Assembly (NCBI GenBank): GCA_011391865.1
Contig: JAABPV010000015.1
Coordinates: forward strand, 1 to 47,420
Reading direction: 5' to 3'
Source of the DNA: Desulfobulbaceae bacterium
GTDB taxonomy: Bacteria; Desulfobacterota; Desulfobulbia; Desulfobulbales; Desulfobulbaceae
Length of the DNA: 47,420 nucleotides
Shown here: in pieces, positions 14,151 to 46,611 of the stretch
Layout: the number at the start of each line of letters is the position of its first letter
Numbering within the stretch: the stretch's first letter is position 1
The notes under the pieces: model-generated
Database searches by the model: none
The model's input: the letters and a program-made list of their open reading frames with translations, nothing else
Told to the model about the DNA's origin: nothing
Program-made: the position numbers and the translations under genes

Positions 14151-14163
14151 TGCACCCGGCCTT

Positions 14164-14373
14164 CGATTTTAAATATCACGCTGCCGATGAAAAGAATCGT
14201 GGGCTTGCGTTTTTAACGCGAAGGCTTGCGATTAAAAGACAGGTCGTTGATTTTTAATTGCGGGCTGCTGATGAAAGAACGCAGGTCGCCGCGATTAAAA
14301 CGCGAGGGCTTGCGATTAAAAATCCATGCCCCGCAAGAAAACATCCGCCAGCCGATTTTTTATGCGGAGGCGA
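14164..14373. repeat. 21-nt-period array A (10 units)
   Basis: Ten units start at 14164 and every 21 nt after it without slippage. Each has a core of about 15 nt beginning CG or TG with an AT-rich centre (CGATGAAAAGAATCG, TGCGTTTTTAACGCG, CGCGATTAAAACGCG). A linker of about 6 nt follows, often GGCT or GGTCG. Units four apart resemble each other: TGCGATTAAAA occurs at 14227 and again at 14311, giving an 84-nt higher-order period. No reading frame or RNA family is recognised. The region from 14374 to 14408 shows nothing clear. Confidence 0.8.
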
Positions 14374-21364: not shown

Positions 21365-22351
21365 TCAGCGTCCGCCTTTCACTCTCGGATCAAGCCAGGC
21401 GTAGACGAATTCCAGGCAGATCATCGCCGCAAGGACCAAGAGCGAGGAGAAGAGCACCACGCTTTGGATCAGCGGCAGGTCGCGCAGGCGGATGGCGTTG
21501 AAGAGCAGTGTGCCCACGCCGGGATAAGAATGGATGCGCTCGACCACCAGCGCGCCGGTGATCATAAAGGCCAGCCGCATTCCCAAGCGCGTGACCAAGG
21601 GCAGCAGGCAGCAGCGGGCGGCGTGGACATAGCGGATGCGGGCCGCTGACAGCCCCTTGGCCTGCGCGGTGCGGATGTGCGGCTGCCGGATGATCATCAC
21701 CATGCTGGTGCGGGTGAGGAGGAAATTGCCAGGGAAATAGGCGATGAGCAGCGAGAAAAGCGGCAGGGCCGAATGATGGGCCACGTCTAAAAGCCAGCGG
21801 TGCGTGGGCAGATCGGCGTAGGCGGTCTCGGCGCCGGACGAGGGAAACCAGCCGAGCCAGAGCGAGAAGACCGCCAGCAGCAGTACGCCGGTGCAGATTT
21901 CCGGGATGCCGTCGAGCACAGTGCTGAACGTGACCAAACCTTTCTCCAGCCTGCTGTTGCGGCGCGAGGCGGCCTCGACTCCGGCGATGAAGCCTGCGCT
22001 GGCGGCGATGACGTTGGCCGTGACCAAGAGGAGCAGCGTCCACGGCAGGGCGTTGAAGAACAGCTCCGAGACCGGGGCCATGAAGGCGTGGGAATAACCC
22101 CAGTCCAGTCTGATCAAACGGAGCAGGTAGCTGCCGAAGCCAGTGCTGCGGCTGTAGTAGGTTTGCAGCTCCGCCAGCTGCTCCGCGCTGATGACCACAT
22201 CCTCCGAGCTGGCGTGCATCGCGGTGACGAAGTCGCCGGGCAGCAGCGCGGGCAGAGCGTAGCTGAGATAGATCATCAGCAGGGCCGAGATACTGCCGGT
22301 GAGCAGCAGGTCAGCCCGTGTTCTCCCGTGACGGACAGCGCGGCGCAGCAT
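21365..22351 (-). CDS. ABC transporter permease, DppB/NikB type
   Basis: This 328-residue membrane protein has a first helix (LLLTGSISALLMIYLSYAL), then a periplasmic segment (ALLPGDFVTAMHASSED, like the usual PGDP motif), then five further helices. The EAA loop is near TAQAKGLSAARIRYVHAARC. GALVVERIHSYPGVGTLLFNAI matches the conserved DppB stretch (VExVFxxPGLG). I start at the ATG at 22351, which shares one base with the stop of the binding-protein gene (TGATG). The longer frame to 22423 adds a polar, unlikely N-terminus. Together with the DppC-like gene it makes the membrane channel. Confidence 0.88.
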   Translation of the reverse strand: MLRRAVRHGRTRADLLLTGSISALLMIYLSYALPALLPGDFVTAMHASSEDVVISAEQLAELQTYYSRSTGFGSYLLRLIRLDWGYSHAFMAPVSELFFNALPWTLLLLVTANVIAASAGFIAGVEAASRRNSRLEKGLVTFSTVLDGIPEICTGVLLLAVFSLWLGWFPSSGAETAYADLPTHRWLLDVAHHSALPLFSLLIAYFPGNFLLTRTSMVMIIRQPHIRTAQAKGLSAARIRYVHAARCCLLPLVTRLGMRLAFMITGALVVERIHSYPGVGTLLFNAIRLRDLPLIQSVVLFSSLLVLAAMICLEFVYAWLDPRVKGGR

Positions 22352-23913
22352 CAGCGGATGAGGAAGAGCTTGTTCTGCGCGGTCGGCACGCCGTTGCCCA
22401 CACCGCCCGGCGTGTACTGCCAAAGAACTCCCTTGGCCGGATTGTACGCCGACATGGAGCGGGGATAGTACAGCGGCAGGGCTGGCAGCTCGTCCGCCGC
22501 GATGCGCTGAATCTCCCAGACCAACTGCCGCCGCTTCTCCTTGTCCATCTCCGTTGTTTGGGCAGCAAAGAGCTGCTTCAGCTCCGGGCTGACTTGCGCG
22601 CGGGCCGAGTTGATTGAGCCGGTGGACTGCTCATCACTGAGCAGGCGGTTGAGCAGGATTGGATCGCCAAGCAGGCCGCCGTGGCCGGAAATGGCCAAGT
22701 CAAAGTCCCAGTTCATGATCCGGCTGTCCGCCGTGGTCTTCTCCTGATTCTGCAAGTCCACCTTGATCCCCGCTTTCTCTAACTGCTGGCGGATGATCTC
22801 GCCGTCGCGGTCAGGCCCGGCCATGGCCGAGTTGAGCAGGCTGACAGTCAGCTTTTTGCCGTCCTTGCTGAAGAAGCCGTCCGCGTCTTTTTTATAGCCG
22901 AGCTGGCCGAGCAGCTGCCCGGCCTTTTCCGGGCTGTATTCGTAATCCGGCGTGTCCGGATTGTAGAATTCATGATCTGGCGAGAGCAGGCCGCAGGAGC
23001 CGGGCGTGCCGAAGCCCTGATGGCCCTTGTCAATCAGCTCCTGCCGGTTGACAGCGTGGGCGAGGGCGTGGCGGAACTCCTTGCTGCTGAACGGCACCTT
23101 GCGGTGGTTGATCATCAGCTTCTTGTTCCAGCCGCGCTTGTCCTCGATGATCGTCATGCCCTTCTGCCGCAGGGTCTCAGCCATGTTCGGCTCAATGCCG
23201 ACCAGATCGGCCTTGTCCGTCATTAAAGCGAAGAGCGGATCCTCGGCCCGGACGTAAATCAGGCGGTCCACCTTGGGGCGGCCCTGGTAATACTCGGCAA
23301 AGGCTTCAAAAAGATAGCTGCCCTTCACCTTGTCAAAGTTGACGAACTTGTACGGCCCGGTGCCGGTGAAGCTGTCTGCGGCCTCGTATTTCTTCGGATC
23401 CTCTACCTTGCTCCAGACATGCTCCGGCAGGATGGGCATGGTCTCCATGAAGGAGAGGAAGGGCGCGTATGGCTCCTTCAGCTTGAAGGTCACCTGCTGC
23501 GGCCCGCTGACCGCGCAGGACTCGATCTTGTCCAAACGGATCCAGCTGTAGGGATGCTTCTGCATGTAGCTGACAGTGAAGACCACATCCTCCGGGCGGA
23601 AGGGCTTGCCGTCGTGCCATTGCACGCCCTCGCGCAGGGTGAAGACCCAGCTTGCGCTCTCCGGCTTGTATTCCCACGCTGTGGCCAAGGCCGGAGCCAG
23701 CCCTTTCCCGTCCCGCCAGAGCAGGCTGTCGAAAACCATGCTCATGCGGACATAGCCCGGCCCGCGCGGATAATGCCGGTAGGGCGTGGGATAGCCCCAG
23801 TCGCCGCCGCCGCTGTCCGCGATGCGGATTTCCTTGACCTGCGCCGCCGGAGCAGGATTGATCCAGAGAAAACATGTCGCCAGCAGGGCCGCTGCCCGCA
23901 GTGTTCGCTTCAT
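22351..23913 (-). CDS. ABC transporter solute-binding protein, family 5
   Basis: This 520-residue periplasmic protein has a signal peptide (cleavage after PAPAA near residue 23) and the SBP family 5 fold. Diagnostic segments are LREGVQWHDGKPFRPEDVVF, TGTGPYKF and FRHALAHAVNRQELI. Family members bind peptides, nickel chelates or sugars. The neighbours FmdE and a NicO-type metal transporter favour a metal or metal-complex ligand, but the sequence alone does not decide. The gene is coupled to the DppB-like permease. Upstream lies array B (23994-24245), which separates it from fmdE, so its promoter must lie within or beside that array. Confidence 0.88.
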   Translation of the reverse strand: MKRTLRAAALLATCFLWINPAPAAQVKEIRIADSGGGDWGYPTPYRHYPRGPGYVRMSMVFDSLLWRDGKGLAPALATAWEYKPESASWVFTLREGVQWHDGKPFRPEDVVFTVSYMQKHPYSWIRLDKIESCAVSGPQQVTFKLKEPYAPFLSFMETMPILPEHVWSKVEDPKKYEAADSFTGTGPYKFVNFDKVKGSYLFEAFAEYYQGRPKVDRLIYVRAEDPLFALMTDKADLVGIEPNMAETLRQKGMTIIEDKRGWNKKLMINHRKVPFSSKEFRHALAHAVNRQELIDKGHQGFGTPGSCGLLSPDHEFYNPDTPDYEYSPEKAGQLLGQLGYKKDADGFFSKDGKKLTVSLLNSAMAGPDRDGEIIRQQLEKAGIKVDLQNQEKTTADSRIMNWDFDLAISGHGGLLGDPILLNRLLSDEQSTGSINSARAQVSPELKQLFAAQTTEMDKEKRRQLVWEIQRIAADELPALPLYYPRSMSAYNPAKGVLWQYTPGGVGNGVPTAQNKLFLIR

Positions 23914-23993
23914 TGTCTGCCGCCTTGTCGTATTTTTTAATTATGCGCCCTGCTCTTTTTTTCGGCAGGGCCTGTTTTGTTGCAATGGCTGCC

Positions 23994-24245
23994 CAGTTTT
24001 TAGCACGGGCCGTCCATTTTTAAAAACTGAAGGCTCATAGTTTTGCACTGAGCGGCCAGTGAAAGAAAATGGCTGCCCAGTTTCTTTCACTGACTGCCCA
24101 TTTTTAAAAAATGGATGCTCATAGTTTTCCACTGAGCGGTCATAGGAAGAAACTGACAGCTCAGTTTCTTCCTATGACCATCCATTTTCTTAAACTGAGA
24201 CCTCAGTTTTAAAAAATGGATGGCCAGAGCAAAGAAATGGCCGCC
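23994..24245. repeat. 21-nt-period array B (12 units, 84-nt higher-order repeat)
   Basis: Twelve units begin at 23994 + 21k with no slippage. Each is a 15-nt core starting CA and ending TG (the first ends GG), then a 6-nt linker. Cores at steps of four units belong to the same type: CAGTTTCTTTCACTG, CATTTTTAAAAAATG, CATAGTTTTCCACTG, or purine-rich. Adjacent cores often pair: CATAGGAAGAAACTG at 24141 is the exact reverse complement of the core at 24162. Units at 24183 and 24204 pair at about 19 of 21 bases across a GACC loop. Weaker, 20-nt-spaced units continue to about 24300. The rest of 23914-24341 holds no gene. Confidence 0.85.
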
Positions 24246-24341: not shown

Positions 24342-24884
24342 TCACCAGCCCCGCGAATAATCCGGCGCGCAGTCCATGCAGAACTGCTTGCCCTCGTGCA
24401 GGCGGACGTTGCGCTCAGAGCAGGTTTCGCCGCACTGCTCGCAGGTCACACTCTTGAAAAGTCGGGCGCGGGCAGGCAGATTGTAATCCGGCTCGCTGAA
24501 GGCAAACAGCTCCTCGTCCGGCAGACTGAGGATTTCCTTCCTGAATGCCTCGCGGTCGATCTTGTCACGGTCAAACGTCTTCTTCATCGTCACCCGGAGC
24601 TTTTTGTCCTGCGAGCGGACGAAAAAGCTGAAGGCCTGCTTGCCCCGGTCGCGGTAGATCAAATTGCCTTTGCCCAAGGTGCAGCCGGTGAGATACTGCA
24701 CTGCATCCAAGCCGCAGGCATCGTTCTCGGTCACGCAGACCACTTCCTCGTCCGGCGAAAATTTCACGCCCAGTTTCTGCTGCGCCGCTTTGGCGATCCG
24801 GTAGCCGATGGCCAGGCCCGGACATTCGTGGCCGTGAAAAGCCACGCACTGCTCCCAGTCGCTGCTCTGCTGTGCTGCTGACAT
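24342..24884 (-). CDS. FmdE family protein with C-terminal zinc ribbon
   Basis: The 180-residue protein opens with the FmdE signature CVAFHGHECPGLAIGYRIA, which in this family lies near a redox or metal site, and continues with ENDACGLDAVQ and TGCTLGKGN. The C-terminal 40 residues form a zinc ribbon with two CxxC pairs (CEQCGETC, then CMDC). FmdE is named after a formylmethanofuran dehydrogenase subunit, but in bacteria it usually accompanies molybdenum, tungsten or nickel transport and its biochemical role is unclear. It follows the NicO gene by 52 nt on the same strand, so they are probably one operon. The distance to the ABC genes is 428 nt and filled by array B. Confidence 0.9.
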   Translation of the reverse strand: MSAAQQSSDWEQCVAFHGHECPGLAIGYRIAKAAQQKLGVKFSPDEEVVCVTENDACGLDAVQYLTGCTLGKGNLIYRDRGKQAFSFFVRSQDKKLRVTMKKTFDRDKIDREAFRKEILSLPDEELFAFSEPDYNLPARARLFKSVTCEQCGETCSERNVRLHEGKQFCMDCAPDYSRGW

Positions 24885-24936: not shown

Positions 24937-25839
24937 TTAGAACCAGATGCTGCGGACGGAATTGAACATGGTGTACACGCCGAGGACGATGATCAGGCCC
25001 GCGCTGGCGATGCCCATCTTCCGGGCGAAGTCCATGTTCTCGCTGATCTTGCTGGTGAGATGGCGGCTCTGCGAGAGCAGCACGCCGATGCTGATCATCA
25101 CCAGGCCCAGCCCAAGGCTGAAGAAGAGGGTGACGGTCAGCCCTTGGCCGATTTTGCCCGCGCCAATGGCGATCAGCAATGTGGCGATGGCCGCCGGGCA
25201 GGGAATGATGCCGCCGGACATGCCGAGCAGGAGCAGCTCCAGCTTGCTGGTCGGCTTGGCCGCCGCCGCTGCGGCGGGCTGATGATGGCTGTGGCTGTGC
25301 TGCTCGTGCGGATGCTCGTGATAGCCCTCATGCGCATGGGGATGAACGTGCGGATGCAGATGCTCGTGTGCGTGGTCGGCAGGATGCGGCTGCTCATGGC
25401 TGTGGCCGTGGTCGTCCTCTTCATGCGCATGGGGATGAGCGTGCGGATGCTGATGCTCATGGCTGTGGCTGTCATGCGGATGATGGTGATCGTGGCCGCC
25501 GCCGAAGAGATGGAAATGGCTGTGGCCCGCGCCGGAGAGCCGCTGTCGCAGCATCCAGATGCCGACGATCAGAATCATGGCGGCGGAGACTAAGCCGAGC
25601 CAGTTGTGCAGGGTCTCGTCCGAATAGCGTTTGGAGAGCAAGGCCGCCGTAAGGCCGAGCAGGATGACGCTGAAGGTGTGGGTTATCGTAACGATGGTGC
25701 CGAGCAGCACGCCGTCCCAGGCGCGGCCTCTGGTCCCGACCATGTAGGCCGCGATCAGGGTTTTGCCGTGGCCGGGTTCAAAAGCGTGCAGCGCGCCAAG
25801 GAATATGGCGGTGGAATACAGGGCGAAAAGGCTGGTCAT
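24937..25839 (-). CDS. NicO/RcnA family nickel-cobalt transporter, His-rich
   Basis: This 300-residue membrane protein begins with ALHAFEPGHGKTLIAAYMVG, the NicO metal-recognition helix with its spaced His residues. SGGIIPCPAAIATLL marks the other half. Six hydrophobic helices are seen. Between helices three and four lies a loop of about 90 residues dominated by His (roughly residues 105-195), a likely nickel or cobalt buffer. Family members include the exporter RcnA and uptake permeases, so direction is open. It is the first gene of the minus-strand unit and is divergent from a LysR-type regulator 263 nt away, with an operator-like repeat between them. Confidence 0.92.
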   Translation of the reverse strand: MTSLFALYSTAIFLGALHAFEPGHGKTLIAAYMVGTRGRAWDGVLLGTIVTITHTFSVILLGLTAALLSKRYSDETLHNWLGLVSAAMILIVGIWMLRQRLSGAGHSHFHLFGGGHDHHHPHDSHSHEHQHPHAHPHAHEEDDHGHSHEQPHPADHAHEHLHPHVHPHAHEGYHEHPHEQHSHSHHQPAAAAAAKPTSKLELLLLGMSGGIIPCPAAIATLLIAIGAGKIGQGLTVTLFFSLGLGLVMISIGVLLSQSRHLTSKISENMDFARKMGIASAGLIIVLGVYTMFNSVRSIWF

Positions 25840-44476: not shown

Positions 44477-44488
44477 GGTGCTGCGCCG

Positions 44489-44603
44489 CTCGAACGAGCG
44501 TTTGAGAAAAAGTCAAACGTTCGTTCGAGAAAGTCTCAAACGAACGTTCGGGGAAGTCTCAAACGTATGTTCGAGGAAGTCTCAAACGAGCGTTTGAGTT
44601 TGC
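44489..44603. repeat. 23-nt-period palindromic array D (5 units)
   Basis: Five units start at 44489, 44512, 44535, 44558 and 44581, exactly 23 nt apart. Each has an 18-nt palindromic core of the form CTCRAACGNNCGTTYGAG and a 5-nt linker (GAAGT in most). Cores 1 and 5 differ at one base. The array starts 13 nt after the oxidoreductase stop and ends about 60 nt before the second TPR gene. Confidence 0.88.
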
Positions 44604-44666: not shown

Positions 44667-46403
44667 ATGGATGGCAATGTTATAGATGTTGTCTGTGACA
44701 AGCTGCAATGGCTGCTTGATCATCCTGAAGTGACATGGAGCGGCAGCGGCATTTACGCGCTTTCGCTGACAGGCAGTGCGGTGTTTGCTGTTGCTGTGTA
44801 TGTGCGTCGGAGAAAGAAGAAGTCGCCTCCCTCCTCAGAAGAACATCTCCGTCCGCCGCTGCCTGCACAGAATATAACCAACCAATTCAATAGTGGCGGC
44901 GGCGAGCAAACTAACCTTCAAGGCGATCATGGCATTGCCAAGCAGGTGAACAACCACGGCCCTGTGATCAGCACGTCTGGCAATCAGTCACCGGCGATTC
45001 ATGGCCCGAATGCCACGGTGAACTACAACAATATGCCGCCAAACTGGACGCAGTATACTGAAGAGTTCGGTGTGACCAAGGCGGCTCTTACCAGCTTCTT
45101 CAAGATATTGCAAGAGCCACAGGTGCCGCCGGGCGACTTGGACAGCAAGCTGCGGGAATTTGCCTGTCAGCACAAAGAACTCAAACTTCGCTTGCAGGTC
45201 ATATCTTCTGATGACCCAGAGGTGAAAGTCCTGAAGAAGCAAGCCGAGCAAGCGTTTGATAATGGTCGCTTCTCGGAGGTGGAAGAGCTGCTGAACCAAG
45301 CGAAGGAGCGCGACCGGGCCGCTGTTGCCACGCTGAAAGCAAGTGTGGCTGAACAGCAGGCCGCGCTGGAGAAGCGGCAGCTCTCTGAAGCGCAGAGCTG
45401 TGTGGAACAGGCTGACTTGCAACGGCTGCAATATCGCTATGAGAAATCTGCCCAGTATTACCAAGAGGCTGCGGCAGCCTTGCCTGAAGGACGCAAGGCG
45501 GAACGGGCGGATTATCTTGGTGCGGCAGGGCAAGACCTTAAACAGATTGCCCGCTATGAAGAAGCATTGCGTTTATATGAGCAAAGTCTGTCTATTTCCC
45601 GTGCAATTGGCGACAAGGAAGGCGTAGCACGATTACTACAGCTCATCAGTCATATTTATCATGTCCAAGGTGATTATAAGAAAGCATTGGAGCATCTTGG
45701 ACAGAGCCTGTCTATATTCAGAAAACTTAGCCACAAGGAAGGCGAAGGCGCGACGCTGAATAGTATCGCCGCGATTCATCTTGACAAGGGCGATTACCCG
45801 AACGCTCTGAAGTATCTTGAACAAAGCCTGCTGCTGGCACGAGAGATAAAGGTGAAGAAAGGTGAGGCAACCATACTGAATAATATTGGCCAGATTCACT
45901 TGAAACAAAAGAACTATGCTACTGCCCTGCAATGCTATGAGCAGGCTTTGGCTATCGGGCGCGAGATCAAGGATAAGCTGATAGAAAGTGGTTGCCTGAA
46001 CAGTATCGGTCAAGTTTACCATGACCAAGAGAACTACGATGCGGCCTTGGAACAATATGAGCAGAGCTTGGCGATCATTCAGCGAATCGGCGACCGACGA
46101 AACGAGGGCGCAGCACTGAACAATATCGGTAAGAGTTATGAGGCCAAAGGGGATTACGCTGCTGCCCTAAAGCAGTATGAGCAATCTCTGGCTATCGCCA
46201 AGGAGATCGGCGACAAAGATGGTGAGGCTGTCACGAGCTGGAATATAGGTGTGCTTTACGAAAAGCAAGTCAATCTGGCTGAGGCAAAACAATACATGAA
46301 CAGGGCTGTGGAGCTTGGAACGCAGCTTGAACACCCTGATCTGGAATTATGGCGCAAGGCATTGGAGGAAGTTCGCGCCAAGCTGCGGGGGCAGCAGGAA
46401 TGA
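44667..46403 (+). CDS. Membrane-anchored TPR protein with GxQSP motif
   Basis: This 578-residue protein has a short N-terminal segment, one membrane helix (about residues 26-46) followed by Arg and Lys, and a glycine- and asparagine-rich stretch. That stretch ends in STSGNQSPAIHGPNATVNY near residue 103, the motif shared with the proteins at 35111 and 36462. A coiled coil (about 170-240) precedes about eight 40-residue TPR units of the form YATALQCYEQALAIGREI. Such proteins act as scaffolds. The ATG has GAGGA eight bases upstream. It lies between arrays D and E and between two copies of the rhodanese 3' end, which suggests it arrived as a cassette. Function unknown. Confidence 0.85.
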   Translation: MDGNVIDVVCDKLQWLLDHPEVTWSGSGIYALSLTGSAVFAVAVYVRRRKKKSPPSSEEHLRPPLPAQNITNQFNSGGGEQTNLQGDHGIAKQVNNHGPVISTSGNQSPAIHGPNATVNYNNMPPNWTQYTEEFGVTKAALTSFFKILQEPQVPPGDLDSKLREFACQHKELKLRLQVISSDDPEVKVLKKQAEQAFDNGRFSEVEELLNQAKERDRAAVATLKASVAEQQAALEKRQLSEAQSCVEQADLQRLQYRYEKSAQYYQEAAAALPEGRKAERADYLGAAGQDLKQIARYEEALRLYEQSLSISRAIGDKEGVARLLQLISHIYHVQGDYKKALEHLGQSLSIFRKLSHKEGEGATLNSIAAIHLDKGDYPNALKYLEQSLLLAREIKVKKGEATILNNIGQIHLKQKNYATALQCYEQALAIGREIKDKLIESGCLNSIGQVYHDQENYDAALEQYEQSLAIIQRIGDRRNEGAALNNIGKSYEAKGDYAAALKQYEQSLAIAKEIGDKDGEAVTSWNIGVLYEKQVNLAEAKQYMNRAVELGTQLEHPDLELWRKALEEVRAKLRGQQE

Positions 46404-46486: not shown

Positions 46487-46611
46487 GGGATGCTCATCCT
46501 AAACGCTGCGGGATTAGTATCCCAAACGCTGCGGGATACTAATCCCGATTTGAATTCTACGCCCGATGAATTCCTTTTGGGATTAGTATCCCGATCCGAA
46601 TTCATCGGGCG
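46487..46611. repeat. 23-nt-period palindromic array E
   Basis: Palindrome-like cores occur at 46487, 46510, 46533 and 46579, all in one 23-nt register: GGGATGCTCATCCT, GGGATTAGTATCCC, its reverse complement, and GGGATTAGTATCCC again. The first three are separated by AAACGCTGC. At 46560 and 46598 the 14-mer CGCCCGATGAATTC and its reverse complement flank the last core. The array fills the gap between the rhodanese fragment and the convergent dehydrogenase stop. Confidence 0.85.

Follow-up and report, generated by a model that had tools for sequence, protein, structure and literature searches.

A dyad-symmetric 21-nt array in the nickel-type transporter cluster of a Desulfobulbaceae genome matches arrays found upstream of a multi-copy small-protein gene family

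The window analysed here is a 47,420-nt stretch of contig JAABPV010000015.1 from a Desulfobulbaceae genome (2.8 Mb, 87 contigs). Its source is probably a cable bacterium, with the sister genus Ca. Electronema as a possible placement, and the genomes compared included four congeners. Within a nickel-type transporter cluster of this window, a tandem array (array B, 23994–24245, unstranded) lies between fmdE (24342–24884, minus strand), which ends before it, and a substrate-binding protein gene (SBP_bac_5, nikA/opp1A-like; 22351–23913, minus strand; hereafter nikA), the first gene past the array in its reading direction. The best named match of nikA is from Ca. Electrothrix aarhusensis (65%), and a published comparison finds that in cable bacteria this subunit resembles Opp1A of S. 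aureus more closely than it does NikA of E. coli (PMC11247825). Gene order nicO-fmdE-nikA-permease is common to the array B contig and Ca. Electrothrix aarhusensis (L053), in which fmdE and nikA practically abut with no array between them and so constitute an empty site; array B is therefore most simply read as an insertion in the lineage of the window genome. The NicO nickel transporter gene of the window also contains a histidine-rich low-complexity stretch (25204–25510), detected as a short-period repeat.

Array B consists of 12 in-register units of 21 nt with dyad symmetry, each a 15-nt core of the form CA-N11-TG followed by a 6-nt linker, with unit starts at 23994 and at each 21st base up to 24225. 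As a preliminary description of this DNA had proposed, CA opens every core (12/12) and TG closes all but one (11/12), the first core closing with GG. Autocorrelation reached 0.50 at lag 21, 0.55 at lag 42, 0.69 at lag 84 and 0.57 at lag 105, the lag-21 and lag-84 values exceeding the maximum of 0.41 across 300 dinucleotide shuffles (lags 5–129), and the tandem-repeat finder TRF likewise called periods 84 and 42. The proposed 84-nt higher-order repeat thus has its peak, but the order is partial, with the second and third 84-nt blocks 82% and 61% identical to the first. Neighbouring cores can indeed be exact reverse complements: the units at 24141 and 24162 form a perfect 19-nt inverted repeat with a 4-nt loop (24138–24179, unstranded). 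Near-identical unit pairs are in excess in both inverted (7 versus 0.9 expected) and direct orientation (5 versus 1.1 expected), so that array B arose by direct and inverted copying, in line with the copying mechanism suggested earlier. Degenerate in-phase units may continue the array down to 23933 (23933–23993, unstranded), bringing it to within 20 nt of where nikA begins.

Array B belongs to a larger set. When 494 kb of the window genome were scanned by comb autocorrelation and two coding repeats were set aside, 18 period-21 and 15 period-23 arrays remained, every one built from a word of its own; 31 of these 33 fall outside genes, as called by a simple home-made caller. Any preference of arrays for gene 3' ends is weak. 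At the same scan score the other periods seen (12, 18 and 33) are all divisible by three, as coding repeats should be, and rare period-22 arrays occur too. These and the following array counts come from sampled stretches of genomes. A significant dyad was present in 55 of 60 arrays when columns were permuted, and across the catalogued arrays 452 neighbour gaps were exactly 21 or 23 nt, compared to 5 of 24 nt, which bears out the earlier remark that spacing stays constant as sequence varies. The 23-nt arrays, although built of unrelated words, share one conservation profile, with peaks 3.5 and 7.5 bp from the dyad, a dip at 5.5 bp, and a poorly conserved centre and linker. The suggestion that all cores lie on one DNA face does not generalise: a rule of helical phasing for the whole class was dropped, being incompatible with period 23, and several 21-nt arrays are G+C-rich and lack A/T runs.

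Three consecutive in-register CA-N11-TG units occur at three sites in the window genome (array B and contigs C21 and C24) and at none in a reversed control, and the congener G057 carries one array related to array B. No period-21 or period-23 arrays were found in 400 kb of genus g2 or in 440 kb of other Desulfobacterota and anaerobic methanotrophic (ANME) loci; comparison with phages, plasmids and viral contigs gave no match, and a keyword search of published cable-bacterium genome descriptions found no mention of such arrays. One genome of a genus without the small-protein family described below (G001) holds a nearly perfect 21-nt array, CAATTGCCCCCCGTGGCCGCC (L165 10447–10896), and additionally 32-nt arrays (L164).

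In genus g12 (L210) a 21-nt array precedes a small-protein gene, and the array on C24 precedes a member of the same family. The protein is about 115 aa long and helical, with about 15 matches in the window genome, some of them fragments. Among the full-length copies examined in the window genus, g12 and one g13 genome, a period-21 array lies directly upstream of 33 of 34 (upstream-array scores of 8.9–20.3, compared to 6.2 for the exception) and downstream of none, and the median distance from array end to start codon is 47 nt. This is the placement, at the promoter or on the upstream side of a cognate gene, that characterises iteron- or parS-type arrays. Because an array sits before almost every copy, these data suggest a pairing, undescribed so far, in which each protein would have a dedicated array of DNA to land on. 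The family occurs in 13 of 73 genomes and 3 of 14 genera of the taxonomic family, and among 395 genomes sampled more broadly across the phylum it was seen in the window genome only. Searches of Pfam, NCBIfam and PADLOC gave no significant match and PHROG matches were marginal; the predicted structure is a helical hairpin (predicted local distance difference test, pLDDT, 85) with a disordered C-terminal tail that is basic in most copies.

Array words and protein sequences co-vary across genera, with words tracking protein subfamilies (Mantel r=0.25, p=0.0005, a test that does not separate recognition from joint descent); proteins with MIGGSIPKLL, for example, pair with TTCTcTT-n3-AAgAGAA in both genera. 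Presence of an intact gene also goes with array number, the window genome having its 18 period-21 arrays in 494 kb and G054, which carries only a broken copy, having two in 399 kb, alongside six of period 23.

Arrays without a linked gene outnumber gene-linked ones, and array B is one of these orphans, no copy of the small-protein gene being found on its contig. Its word matches that of the array before the C24 gene copy (p=0.002), with 20 13-mers in common, and it shares 18 13-mers with the orphan on C21. A second orphan 21-nt dyad array in the window (14154–14363, unstranded) has a word matching that of the array preceding gene copy L263 (p=0.004), and of the 18 orphans of period 21 in all, 9 have words that correspond to gene-linked ones with p of 0.012 or less. 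Array B also ends 20–80 nt from nikA, a position typical of gene-linked arrays.

The explanation we favour, which we put at an even balance, treats array B as an orphan from a class of 21-nt dyad arrays whose usual place is in front of the small helical-protein gene, and takes such arrays to be DNA binding arrays for their cognate small proteins. Each protein, as a dimer or oligomer, would bind the palindromic row before its own gene and control it; orphans such as array B would be further landing sites, and nikA, starting just past array B, would respond to a C24-type protein. The fixed spacing would then reflect cooperative binding by neighbouring dimers. Word–protein co-variation is consistent with specific binding of this kind, for which the omega (ParB)/parS system of pSM19035 offers a comparable logic. 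Omega is a small dimeric protein whose short sites, in mixed orientation, follow one another directly at the promoters of the omega gene itself and of further genes, and its function depends on the row having no gaps (PMC9499535). Its sites are non-palindromic heptads read by a ribbon-helix-helix protein working with a ParA ATPase (PMC9499535), whereas the arrays described here are 21-nt dyads with a predicted helical-hairpin protein, many chromosomal copies, and words that differ between copies.

Four points weigh against this binding-array reading. The other half of the orphan 21-nt arrays, including a GATTTC-word family, match no gene-linked word; the modelled protein has no fold match and no recognisable DNA-binding fold; joint inheritance of gene and array alone could explain the co-variation; and no linked gene was found for the 23-nt class, which is built in the same style. 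The GATTTC...GAAATC arrays with no linked small-protein gene are at L135 1736, L136 18840, L145 13797, L153 2723 and L156 331.

The main rival is a selfish gene-plus-array cassette resembling repetitive extragenic palindromic (REP) elements, in which the array is mobile or recombining, the gene aids its spread, and orphans such as array B are non-autonomous copies with no regulatory task. We regard this as the less likely account, at perhaps half the weight of the binding-array reading, and several features speak for it: the gene copies are multiple, patchy and partly broken, orphans are the more numerous class, array B is inserted inside an operon, and arrays at the same site in sister species are present, absent or swapped for a different word. 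At one orthologous intergenic site (L146 15927–16064, compared with L174, L175, L176 and L177), the window genome has one 23-nt word, G054, G055 and G057 have another, and G056 has none, although such orthologous-site comparisons are few. Two further 23-nt dyad arrays stand on either side of a TPR gene (44667–46403) in the window, at 44487–44602 and 46487–46610, and at the former site G054 and G056 carry 23-nt arrays of other words. Against a cassette, the small protein shows no transposase or nuclease signature in Pfam, NCBIfam, PADLOC or structure comparison, one empty site compared by eye shows no target-site duplication, and the array is found 5' of the gene only, never flanking both sides.

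The lack of a transposase signature and the one-sided placement also separate the arrays from REP elements and bacterial interspersed mosaic elements (BIMEs) with their REP-associated tyrosine transposases (RAYTs), which share with them intergenic palindromic units in both orientations, many orphans, and a multi-copy gene co-evolving with its cognate repeats (PMC2817692, PMC3733652). Here the period is 21 nt, there is no GTAG tag, and the linked gene has no Pfam or NCBIfam match to a Y1/HUH tyrosine transposase; nor is the gene bracketed by inverted units (33/34 upstream, 0 downstream), and RAYT/REP identity was rejected. The sole Y1_Tnp match in the window genome (C4:19470) sits among CGTAGGG repeats rather than 21- or 23-nt arrays; this single RAYT-like gene ('HYNPVKHG') and its repeats, apart from the arrays, are at about 19100–19800 of L137. 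As non-coding tandem repeats dispersed in one genome, the arrays do belong with prokaryotic satellites, which are likewise scattered over a bacterial genome. Those satellites are characterised by what their repeats spell, and their description includes neither a dyad layout, nor periods held at 21 or 23 whatever the word, nor an associated family of genes (PMC6749651). The non-coding satellite families listed there for Leptospira interrogans have repeat lengths of 46 and 69, two and three times 23 (PMC6749651). The TAACTGA direct repeats of Beggiatoaceae, known from a filamentous sulfur bacterium, are similarly numerous, intergenic and mostly a few nucleotides upstream of start codons, and the abstract describing them reports no linked gene family (PMC4679880).

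An improbable alternative is a neutral palindromic minisatellite, kept symmetric by slippage of entire units and by template switches from one inverted arm to the other during replication, and with no function. Such switching is known to make inverted repeats more uniform (PMC8794818, PMC8604942), exact inverted pairs are in excess within array B, and orthologous arrays change by whole units, those of G054 and G055 differing by 23 nt at each of two sites. Over all arrays, though, inverted pairs are not in excess (91 versus 75, null maximum 106), and the halves of a unit complement each other no better than they do the halves of other units, a result that holds for gene-linked arrays too. This absence of within-unit covariation, which local switching should have produced, weakens template switching as the main force, and a neutral origin also leaves unexplained the one-sided gene association, the near-perfect register, and the profile common to unrelated words.

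Slightly less probable again is an RNA element, in which the array would act as a 5' leader folding into hairpins that control the downstream message, that of the small-protein gene or, for array B, of nikA. Arrays do end close enough to start codons for this, and predicted folding of the array region is much stronger than that of shuffled sequence (z of -9.5 and -14.9), but both strands fold well, as would any dyad-symmetric DNA. The arrays evolve strand-symmetrically, with 244 G-T and 244 A-C sense-strand stem mismatches, counts that overstate the number of events since units within one array are not independent. A first tally in gene-linked arrays (250 G-T versus 164 A-C) resembled RNA selection and disappeared under composition control, where G-U odds ratios were 1.05 for gene-linked, 0.98 for orphan 21-nt and 0.97 for 23-nt arrays, and none of the three intervals excludes 1. 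With neither a G-U preference nor within-unit covariation, and with no match in an Rfam search of the array, a structured RNA is not supported, and the earlier picture of a transcript folded into a row of hairpins gives way to a different one: the dyad symmetry is a property of the array word on double-stranded DNA, not of single hairpins.

Two other identities were discarded for array B, namely a coding heptad repeat (21 nt being seven codons), as TAA and TGA stops interrupt every forward frame of the units and the sister period is 23, and a CRISPR array, as variable 15-nt cores, 6-nt linkers and 84-nt higher-order copies replace a conserved 24–48-nt repeat with unique spacers. A nickel-specific role for the array B family was also rejected, because its other members, on C21, C24 and in G057, adjoin unrelated genes.

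To our knowledge, regular intergenic arrays in bacteria rarely have identified partners. The cross-genome comparison ties these arrays to an uncharacterised multi-copy gene family, so that a single purified protein and a single fragment of DNA would be enough to test their function. It also places an array inside a nickel-type transporter operon of a probable cable bacterium, a group whose conductive fibres contain a nickel-containing cofactor (PMC12093952). Extending the binding-array reading, we tentatively propose, as rather less likely than not, an undescribed two-part system of a small group of genera that are related and probably cable-bacterial. Each genome would encode some 15 paralogous small proteins, each with a private palindromic word upstream of its gene and with orphan arrays elsewhere; together these would make up orthogonal protein–array addresses, spreading into operons such as that of the nickel transporter, and the 23-nt arrays would form a second set with another partner. 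If the words are indeed private addresses, these genomes would hold a natural collection of orthogonal DNA-binding pairs.
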